Part shown: positions 1,436-49,462 of the stretch, one piece after another
Layout: every line of letters starts with the position of its first letter
Position numbering within the stretch: position 1 is the stretch's first letter
NCBI RefSeq assembly: GCF_000426625.1
Contig: NZ_KE384547.1
Span: 1,975,159-2,039,158, forward strand
Length of the DNA stretch: 64,000 nucleotides
From: Psychrilyobacter atlanticus DSM 19335
Lineage (GTDB): Bacteria; Fusobacteriota; Fusobacteriia; Fusobacteriales; Fusobacteriaceae
Direction: 5' to 3'
Notes under the pieces: generated by a model
The model's input: the letters and a program-made list of their open reading frames with translations, nothing else
Databases searched by the model: none
Told to the model about the DNA's origin: nothing
Program-made: the position numbers and the translations under genes

Positions 1436-2182
1436 TTAATTTTTTATATGTTTTTCTATTAATTCATTGTATTTTTTACTTTTTATAATTTTTTCTAAAG
1501 CCTTATTTATTTGAGTTAATAATTCAGTTTCATCCTTTCCCATAGCCATAGCATATTCCTCTGATTGTAAAGTATAGTCAGATAACTTTAAACCATTATT
1601 ATTCTCAGTTGTTTTTTTAGCCTGCTGATAATCCAAGATTATCATATCTATTTTTTCAGCCTGCAGTGATAAAACAGCTTCGTGCAATTTATTATATTTT
1701 ACAGTCTCTACACCATCTAATTCTTTAGATAGATTCTCGGCTATGGTATCGCTGGTTGTTCCCATTACAACTCCTATCTTTTTCCCTGCTATATCAGACT
1801 CTTTCTCTATCTCTTTTGACCCCTCTCCTACCATAATTACCTGGCTCACATTAAAATATGGGTGGCTGAAATTCACATTTTTCTTTCTATCTTCTGTTAT
1901 GGACATTCCCGCTACAATTAAATCTATTTTCTTAGTCTGAAGGGCTGGTAGAAGTCCGCTGAAATCCATTCCTACTACTTTAAATTTAAGGCCCGTTTCC
2001 TTACTAACTTCATCTAATAAATCCATATCAAACCCTACTATTTTATCCCCATCCATATATTCAAATGGAACAAAATTCGGAGCCGTTCCTACAACGACAA
2101 CCTTTTCCTCCTTACTTCCTCCACATGCTGTCATTATTACCCCAACTGCTAATATCATCACTAATTGCATTATTTTTTTCAT
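1436..2182 (-). CDS. Amino-acid ABC transporter substrate-binding lipoprotein (1 of 3 in cluster)
   Basis: Captures a polar amino acid outside the inner membrane for an ABC importer. A short signal peptide ends in a lipobox with cysteine near residue 20 (MTACGG). The rest is a 248-residue family 3 binding protein with FVPFEYMDGDKIVGFDMDL, LLPALQTKKIDLIVAGM and TEDRKK, whose arginine normally holds the ligand carboxylate. It sits between argH and argF, away from the permease and ATPase at 7789-9206 that it probably serves. The ligand cannot be read from sequence; arginine, citrulline or an opine fits the context. Confidence 0.9.
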   Translation of the reverse strand: MKKIMQLVMILAVGVIMTACGGSKEEKVVVVGTAPNFVPFEYMDGDKIVGFDMDLLDEVSKETGLKFKVVGMDFSGLLPALQTKKIDLIVAGMSITEDRKKNVNFSHPYFNVSQVIMVGEGSKEIEKESDIAGKKIGVVMGTTSDTIAENLSKELDGVETVKYNKLHEAVLSLQAEKIDMIILDYQQAKKTTENNNGLKLSDYTLQSEEYAMAMGKDETELLTQINKALEKIIKSKKYNELIEKHIKN

Positions 2183-47848: not shown

Positions 47849-47893
47849 TTGACATATAGCTATTTAAATCGTATTATTTGAATATACAAATAA
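47849..47893 (+). promoter_or_regulatory. Promoter and operator of the ArsR-rhodanese operon
   Basis: TTGACA (47849-47854), 17-base spacer, TATTAT (47872-47877). A perfect inverted repeat TTATTTG-AATATA-CAAATAA (47874-47893) overlaps the -10 box, the usual place and base content of ArsR/SmtB operators. Confidence 0.85.
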
Positions 47894-47918: not shown

Positions 47919-48209
47919 TTGTTATATTACAAAGATGATCCAGAATTATTTGAAAATAAAGCTAGTGTCTTAAAAGCTCTATCTCATCCTATAAGATTAT
48001 GCATAGTAAAAAATTTAATTGCAGCAAAAAAAGCCAATGTAACTCAAATGCAACATTGTTTAGAAGCACCACAATCTACAATATCGCAGCACTTATCTAA
48101 ACTAAAGGCTGAAAAAATTATCAAAGGTGAGAGAAAAGGCTTAGAAGTTTATTATTCCATCTCCAATGAAAAGATAATAAAAATTATCGAAGTTCTTTTT
48201 TGTAAATAA
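47919..48209 (+). CDS. ArsR/SmtB-family transcriptional repressor
   Basis: A 96-residue winged-helix repressor (VLKALSHPIRLCIVKNLIAA, CLEAPQSTISQHLSKLKAEKIIKGERKGLEVYYSI). It lacks the ELCVCDL metal box; cysteines are at about 27, 47 and 95, so it may sense thiols, sulfur species or redox rather than arsenite. The start is TTG at 47919, with AGGAGG 6 bases upstream. The rhodanese gene follows 27 bases later. Confidence 0.88.
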   Translation: MLYYKDDPELFENKASVLKALSHPIRLCIVKNLIAAKKANVTQMQHCLEAPQSTISQHLSKLKAEKIIKGERKGLEVYYSISNEKIIKIIEVLFCK

Positions 48210-48236
48210 AAACTATAGATAAAGGGAGTGTAAGTC

Positions 48237-48626
48237 ATGAATATTATAGAAAAAATTAAAACTGGTAATTGACCTATGTTAAAAATCTTAGGTTTAAGAT
48301 TCGGAAAAAAAGGTAAAGCATTCGATATCTCAAAAGACGAAGCTTTGAAATTATTAGAAAGTGACAACACAATAGTCTTAGATGTCCGAACTCCAAAGGA
48401 GATAATCACAGTTCCTTCTTTAGTTGAAGATGCTGTCATGATAGATTATGAAGATAAAAACTTTGAAAGTGAAATAAAAAAATTGGATAAAAATAAAACT
48501 TATTTAGTTGTATGTACCCGTGGAAATTATGCTAGGGGTGCTTGCATTACTATGGAAAAAAACGGATTTAAATCTATGAAAAGTCTTAAGGGTGGCCTTA
48601 ATTATTTTCATAGTTGCTCTACATGA
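48237..48626 (+). CDS. Rhodanese-domain protein with in-frame UGA at codon 12: candidate selenoprotein
   Basis: The start at 48237 has the only good ribosome site (GGGAG, 8 bases upstream). It reads MNIIEKIKTGN, then TGA (48270-48272), then PMLKILGLRFGKKG and a rhodanese domain with active-site loop VVCTRGNYARGA. A second ATG at 48276 has no ribosome site. The hairpin AATCTTA-GGTT-TAAGATT (48284-48301) puts its GG loop 18 bases after the UGA, as in the E. coli fdhF SECIS. If UGA is selenocysteine the product has 129 residues. Otherwise an 11-residue leader frame is coupled to a 116-residue rhodanese, or this is a nonsense mutation. The domain carries sulfur-transfer chemistry; the substrate is unknown. 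Confidence 0.6.
48284..48301 (+). promoter_or_regulatory. SECIS-like hairpin behind the rhodanese UGA
   Basis: A perfect 7-bp stem AATCTTA/TAAGATT with apical loop GGTT, 18 bases from UGA to the first loop G. Known bacterial SECIS hairpins have a G in the first loop positions at 16-37 bases from the UGA. The bulged U of the E. coli element is absent. Confidence 0.5.
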
Positions 48627-48668
48627 GGATAGAAATTATCTTCTGGTAGGAGACCTATGCGTTTAGTA

Positions 48669-48714
48669 AAAAAGATTACTTCTATGTATTAATACATAGA
48701 AGTAATCTTTTTTT
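48669..48714. terminator. Bidirectional terminator between the rhodanese and nitroreductase genes
   Basis: A perfect 20-bp inverted repeat centred at 48690/48691 with A and T runs on both sides; it can end transcripts from either convergent gene. Confidence 0.92.
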
Positions 48715-49462
48715 ATTTCCAATTTTTAAACCACTCGTCTATTGAAGTTTCAAAGTTTTCCATAAAATCTGAATTTGTTTTTCTATTATAAAAAGCCTCT
48801 ACAAATCTCTTACCTTTATTCGATTCTTTTGAATTAAATTCATCTTCTTTTAATTTAAACATAGTTTTTATTTCTTCTTTATCAAGTTCTTTATACTTCT
48901 CTTTGAACACCACAAACTCTTTGTCAAACCTTTTTCTTTTTATTCTTTTATAATCTTCCGGGTAATATCCAAAGGTTAACATTCCAATTGGGATAGTATA
49001 TTCAGGTAGATTTAATAATTCCTTGTGATACTCACAATTTTCTAATATATCACCTATATAGCAACTTCCTATATTTAAGCTTTCTCCTGCAATTACTGCA
49101 TTCTCAGAGGCAATCATTGCATCCTCAAATGCTAATATCATCTCTGCTTTACCAATCTTTCTATTCCCCTCTTTATACATTCCTTCATCTTTGAAATAAT
49201 CATTCCATTTTTTAAAGTCAGCTACAAAAATCAGTATATCGGAAGCTGCTTTTATAAAAGGTTGATCATCACAGGATATCGCTAATTTTTCCATAGTTTC
49301 CTTATTTTGAATATGAATAATTGAATACATAACCATATTCCCCGCTGTAGGAGCACTGATTGCCGATTCTATTATTTTATCCATATGCTCAGATGATATT
49401 TTTTTCTTATCATACCATCTCAGGGATACCCTGTTATTTATAGTTTTTAAAGTTTCATTCAT
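48713..49462 (-). CDS. Nitroreductase-family flavoprotein (NfsA/FRP-like)
   Basis: FMN-dependent NAD(P)H oxidoreductase of 249 residues. The N-terminal RVSLRWYDKKKISSEHMDKIIESAISAPTAGNM binds FMN phosphate, and LNIGSCYIGDI and TIPIGMLTFGYYPED are typical of the NfsA group. The C-terminal 40 residues add a helical tail. Natural substrate unknown. It has a GGAGG ribosome site and stands alone. Confidence 0.88.
   Translation of the reverse strand: MNETLKTINNRVSLRWYDKKKISSEHMDKIIESAISAPTAGNMVMYSIIHIQNKETMEKLAISCDDQPFIKAASDILIFVADFKKWNDYFKDEGMYKEGNRKIGKAEMILAFEDAMIASENAVIAGESLNIGSCYIGDILENCEYHKELLNLPEYTIPIGMLTFGYYPEDYKRIKRKRFDKEFVVFKEKYKELDKEEIKTMFKLKEDEFNSKESNKGKRFVEAFYNRKTNSDFMENFETSIDEWFKNWK

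Follow-up and report, generated by a model that had tools for sequence, protein, structure and literature searches.

A candidate rhodanese selenoprotein with two selenocysteines in Psychrilyobacter atlanticus DSM 19335

The locus and its genes

The window, i.e. the whole stretch of 64,000 nucleotides which we have analysed, contains a rhodanese gene with two in-frame UGA codons, preceded by a gene for an ArsR-type regulator. The features of the locus are collected in Table 1, together with some short related genes found in other genomes. On the other side there is a gene of the nitroreductase family (48713–49462, minus strand); it is convergent with the selenogene and a bidirectional terminator is common to both.

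Table 1. Features of the locus, with positions in the window, and related mini genes, with positions in their own loci
Feature	Position	Strand	Basis or remark
Putative promoter TTGACA-17-TATTAT ahead of the arsR-type gene	47849..47877	+	consensus match 11/12
ArsR/SmtB-type regulator gene (PagR-like), TTG start, next gene upstream of the selenogene	47919..48209	+	NCBIfam HTH_metalloreg
Shine-Dalgarno AAGGGAG	48222..48228	+	sequence; 8 nt before ATG
Candidate two-Sec rhodanese gene, 131 residues MNIIEKIKTGNUPMLK...VVCTRGNYARGA...SCSTUG, ends at TAG	48237..48632	+	
UGA, predicted Sec 1 = residue 12, motif GNUP	48270..48272	+	UGA kept in G058, G054, G053 and two mini copies
SECIS-like hairpin 1 AATCTTA-GGTT-TAAGATT	48284..48301	+	pairs kept in 4/4 distinct sequences
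Rhodanese domain, residues 33–125, loop C-T-R-G-N-Y with Cys93	48333..48611	+	Pfam PF00581, AlphaFold core
UGA, predicted Sec 2 = residue 130, C-terminal motif CSTUG	48624..48626	+	invariant column in 11/11 members
True stop codon TAG	48630..48632	+	TGA-GGA-TAG context
SECIS-like hairpin 2 TCTTCT-GGT-AGGAGA	48639..48653	+	same geometry in most relatives, stem sequences different
Intrinsic terminator of the transcript	48669..48712	+	20-bp stem with T tail
Putative mini two-Sec gene (G054)	L044:4330-4482		beside CRP/FNR-type gene, regulator broken
Putative mini two-Sec gene (G060)	L045:1248-1394		beside CRP/FNR-type gene; start codon ATA
Mini gene, remnant only (G058)	L067 about 1490-1585		

The original prediction was a one-Sec rhodanese: an ATG with a good ribosome site, a TGA at codon 12, an open frame through a complete rhodanese domain, and a 7-bp hairpin whose GGUU loop starts 18 nt past the UGA. 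All these elements are present, and the domain is recognized by Pfam with 41.8 bits (cut-off 22.2). The end of the gene has to be corrected: position 48626 is only the last base of a second in-frame UGA. This apparent stop reads TGA-GGA-TAG, which would give the protein a C-terminus -Cys-Ser-Thr-Sec-Gly, and the loop of hairpin 2 starts 18 nt past this UGA as well. Hairpin 2 is part of the message, since the transcript extends to a strong terminator near 48712. An Rfam search of the locus gave nothing relevant; its best weak match, sau-5971, overlaps the terminator.

Residue 12 lies outside the rhodanese domain and the loop residue is a cysteine. As had been predicted, this Sec does not take the place of the usual rhodanese cysteine. 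The usual final Arg of the loop (CxxGxR) is Tyr in this protein, which makes its classical sulfurtransferase activity uncertain. An AlphaFold model, from an alignment of two rows, shows helices and strands in the core only; both tails have a pLDDT below 50.

The upstream regulator matches HTH_metalloreg with 79.7 bits (cut-off 55). The models PagR (94 bits) and BigR (52 bits) stay below their cut-offs; in the case of BigR, which represents the BigR/SqrR persulfide sensors, the cut-off is 155. The protein lacks the arsenic box, as already read from its sequence in the original prediction. An ArsR-type gene also adjoins the selenogene in G054 and G058, where the C-terminal Cys of the regulator is not kept. 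In G053 and in the mini loci we find a CRP/FNR-type gene in front, with a palindrome TGTGAC-N3-GTCACA in between (imperfect in G053). The ArsR-type regulator probably controls the selenogene, and a link of this control to redox state or sulfur is likely.

Selenocysteine machinery and the C-terminal UGA

The genes for selenocysteine insertion implied by the original prediction are all present in the genome: selD, selA and selB are found in a row on another contig than the selenogene (C3, about 149–153 kb), and there is a tRNA-Sec (65.7 bits) with anticodon TCA. SelB has its full length (369 bits) and SelA adjoins it. SelD (386 bits) is itself encoded by a gene with UGA (CSGGGUTSKIGPG), followed by a hairpin ATAGGAC-CGGGT-GTTCTAT which has a GG loop, the same size and a similar spacing as those of the selenogene. 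SelB scores over the cut-off in every genome with a tailed rhodanese gene; since it is also found in 46 of the 61 genomes of the family, its presence is consistent rather than discriminating.

Rhodaneses with a similar tail form a clade of eleven genes in four genera: the window gene, those of G054 and G058, three paralogues in G053 and one gene each in G047, G048, G049, G001 and G002. In all of them a TGA is followed by TAA or TAG within one or two codons. This C-terminal UGA column is invariant, more conserved than any residue around it, and no member has a Cys version of it. The catalytic position of the rhodanese is variable: Cys in seven members, Ser in three and UGA in one (G053b). Only 19 of the 105 long frames in these loci (about 18%) have TGA as their stop, so that eleven TGA in a row are unexpected even allowing for relatedness.

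We examined 21 UGA sites, 20 of them in the clade and the mini genes, plus the peptidase UGA of G053c described below. A hairpin of at least 5 bp with a GG loop is found at 18 of them, with the loop 16–20 nt past the UGA in nearly all cases; the background is 4% of 2,100 TGA trinucleotides of the window with a hairpin of the same kind of 5 bp or longer. The strict GG-loop rule failed at three sites: the C-terminal one of G053a, the loop of G053b and L022. The hairpins of the C-terminal UGA are situated past the true stop codon, either entirely or for the most part; their support is geometric, since the MAFFT alignments are gapped and unusable for pair counts.

A profile of the clade gives at least 118 bits for its members and at most 79 for other rhodaneses, a separation which is partly by construction since the members themselves went into the profile. 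In the tree the tailed genes stand together, except for a long-branch row without UGA (L032), which is found among them with weak support; row L021 represents the G049 gene a second time. In G001, G002, G048 and G049 the gene is found after the rpoA-rplQ end of the ribosomal operon, and this shared gene order supports orthology. A search of genome contigs with the single protein gave only one ordinary rhodanese; two ordinary rhodaneses were found in plasmids and there was no match in viral contigs.

Several related loci have features of their own. Tailed rhodaneses with one predicted Sec are found directly after rpoA-rplQ in L018, L026, L028 and L046, in two genera, and in three of these four the catalytic Cys is Ser. 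In G053 one gene (L043:4490-4852) has UGA at the catalytic position (VVUTGGVRS) and a second UGA in its tail, CSDUG. Another locus of the same genome (L047:4483-6690) has a subtilase (S8) frame ending at a UGA in CSSGG-U-GGG, followed by a 7-bp hairpin with a GGT loop. This frame continues into a tailed rhodanese, a possible two-Sec peptidase-rhodanese fusion of 736 residues; its UGA is overlapped by a Shine-Dalgarno-like GGAGG, so that two separate proteins are also possible. A different extension, EARKxIITRLNKIEGQIKG, is found at the C-terminus of the rhodaneses in L015, L014, L016, L020, L025, L027 and G000:C2:128333. It resembles a CsoR/CstR-type regulator, and these may be rhodanese-regulator fusions of about 205–217 residues.

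The N-terminal UGA and the mini genes

The N-terminal UGA has a narrower distribution. We searched the 61 genomes of the family with a query which had Cys at the UGA position. The full gene, with its UGA, has three counterparts: two in genomes of the window's genus, at 94 and 92% identity, and one at 52% in G053, a genome of another genus. The N-terminal segment alone was matched, across the TGA, at one place in G054 and at one in G060. A DNA pattern for this segment gave the same picture in 98 genomes of the phylum: six genes in two genera and no other match. The UGA is present in all five other copies. No homologue of the segment with Cys for Sec was found in the phylum, although the query itself had Cys; Sec/Cys pairs of this type commonly support a Sec assignment, but they are no strict requirement. 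Six copies in five genomes rule out a sequencing error, as the same TGA is independently present in other assemblies.

Between the window and G053 there are five silent and three replacing changes in codons 1–11, and six silent and five replacing changes in codons 12–25. The changes are mostly silent or conservative, which indicates a coding frame both before and after the unchanged UGA. In the four distinct sequences available all pairs of the hairpin 1 stem are formed, and two of them have compensatory changes; when the partners are slid by 1–3 bases only 18–54% of the positions are paired. A shuffle test gave 115 out of 500, with little power for four distinct sequences. Among all TGA on the two strands of the window, the one at codon 12 is alone in having a GG-loop hairpin of at least 6 bp at this spacing and at least 60 open codons downstream. 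By its folding energy the region does not stand out (z about −0.9), and this site has a competing fold: the evidence for hairpin 1 is its position, loop and conservation, not its folding energy. A hairpin after the TGA which ends a thiH-like ORF (12374–12372) was also considered and rejected as a chance match, situated where this ORF and the following gene overlap in ATGA.

The mini genes are frames of 49–51 codons in which the N-terminal UGA is present, the rhodanese domain is missing and the end is formed by a CxTUG tail with its own hairpin. They look like the result of an in-frame loss of the domain and suggest a possible cooperation between the two Sec segments. The GNUP and CxxUG segments could even be a self-standing diselenide/selenenylsulfide redox unit for which the rhodanese domain is not needed; the mini genes would then be two-Sec redox peptides themselves, in which Sec makes up about 4% of the residues. 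We consider such a unit rather unlikely, since the mini loci are decayed, with an ATA start, a broken CRP/FNR-type gene and a mere remnant in G058.

The tail UGA is more widely distributed than the N-terminal one, as would be expected if only the former coded for Sec, as it does in genera g2 and g12, and the latter were a leader-peptide or regulatory stop. This is very improbable: there is no conserved start after the N-terminal UGA, the codons upstream of it are conserved and are followed by a compensated hairpin at SECIS distance, and the mini genes keep segment, UGA and hairpin in spite of having no rhodanese domain. We give hardly any credence to a codon-12 TGA which is the true stop of an 11-codon leader, with the rhodanese translated by re-initiation at ATG 48276 (TGACCTATG) and TGA 48624 as an ordinary stop. 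An ATG 3 nt past the UGA does exist in the window gene and in the two genes closest to it, and its 116-residue ORF holds the whole rhodanese domain, but this codon is CTG, CTT and TTA in G053 and the two mini genes. The protein sequence of the 11 upstream codons is conserved together with the UGA, a hairpin whose pairing is kept by compensatory changes stands at SECIS distance, and the C-terminal UGA never varies. Homologues starting at the downstream Met, which would speak against the original prediction, are thus not what we find. Its Sec in N-U-P is upheld: the relatives keep both the upstream segment and the UGA, and the window's genome is equipped for Sec. What it overlooked is the C-terminal Cys-X-X-Sec-Gly, whose conservation reaches further than that of the N-terminal site.

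Proposed chemistry and comparison with known systems

We consider it highly probable that the gene codes for a selenoprotein of 131 residues, with U12 (GNUP) and U130 (CSTUG) flanking the rhodanese domain. Comparative sequence evidence covers both UGAs, their hairpins, the conserved tail and the Sec machinery. SelB and tRNA-Sec would recode each UGA under the direction of a hairpin which starts about 11–12 nt past it and has a GGU-type loop; the hairpin for the second UGA would sit beyond the true stop. Such a position of the tail hairpins bears on the way in which gene finders search for terminal Sec codons. Standard annotation would truncate the protein at both ends and leave a rhodanese of 116 residues without either Sec.

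From the sequences we infer, conditionally, a chemistry, an electron donor and the regulation mentioned above. Our tentative proposal for the chemistry is a redox reaction of persulfides or polysulfides. Their sulfane sulfur would be held as a persulfide on the loop residue of the rhodanese, Cys93 in this protein. The flexible CxxU tail would then reduce the bound sulfur, with formation of a Cys-Sec selenenylsulfide, to be re-reduced by a donor of the thioredoxin type. In the members with Ser in the loop the tail Sec itself would be the nucleophile in the rhodanese pocket. U12 could act as a second selenol, with either the tail or another protein as its partner. A mobile selenol/thiol pair acting on sulfur in the pocket would explain why the catalytic Cys is dispensable. 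With its invariant tail Sec and replaced catalytic cysteine, the clade is a naturally occurring case in which to ask whether rhodanese chemistry can pass to a mobile selenol.

A two-Sec protein could also detoxify metals or metalloids, such as arsenic or mercury, by ligation to its vicinal thiol and selenol. The ArsR-family neighbour fits with this idea, and SaoC and SaoL belong to a group which is linked to organometals. These two are bacterial proteins with a C-terminal Cys-Sec as well (PMC13188914). We find detoxification improbable: a Cys box for metal binding is absent from the regulator, which is closest to the PagR and BigR types and whose last Cys is lost in relatives, and G053 has a regulator of another type.

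Rhodaneses bind selenium in vitro and the genome uses Sec, so that the pocket might carry a perselenide for delivery to SelD. This role in selenium handling is improbable when the genomic context is considered: the gene is not near the sel genes, which are on another contig, many genomes of the family use Sec without having this gene, and its ArsR-type or CRP/FNR-type neighbours are more like those of a stress or sulfur response. Persulfide or polysulfide chemistry of the two-Sec rhodanese remains our proposal.

Other proteins share individual features with this one. The single-domain rhodaneses GlpE and PspE have the same domain, but they have neither tails nor Sec, and the loop CTRGNY differs from theirs by the absence of the usual final Arg. 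Mammalian thioredoxin reductase has a mobile C-terminal tail GCUG, with a Cys/Sec pair and the ending -Sec-Gly. It is only an analogy with an unrelated protein: the window protein has no FAD or NADPH domains and its motif is CxxUG instead of CUG. The X-star selenoproteins (UXX-star, KCU-star, SaoC) also carry Sec at the C-terminus or close to it, in some of them beside Cys; the body here is a rhodanese and it has no NCBIfam match to them.

A review of 2026 lists 119 families and subfamilies of prokaryotic selenoproteins, among them five forms of rhodanese (PMC13188914). Forms 1–4 have one Sec each, in the motifs UxxS, UxxG, CxU and UxxG, and form 5 is similar to a DsbD fusion, with UxxxxU (PMC13188914). 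These forms, which include NF041203 (LYCAU, CxU) and TsoB (NF045694), combine a rhodanese fold with Sec as the window protein does. They differ from it in the position of Sec, which is here outside the domain, in an N-terminal GNUP and a C-terminal CxxUG. In the NCBIfam search no model reached its cut-off with the two-Sec rhodanese: NF041203 gave a score of 41 (cut-off 115) and TsoB had no match at E ≤ 0.001. Among open-licence papers we found none which describes such selenoproteins from Fusobacteria. The rhodaneses whose C-terminal tail is CxxUG or CU, and of which some also have an N-terminal Sec, would be a new testable family in the bacterial selenoproteome. Bacterial selenoproteins and rhodaneses are each well established; Sec at both ends of the domain is found in none of the five forms of the review, and from its sequence the protein described here looks like an undescribed type.
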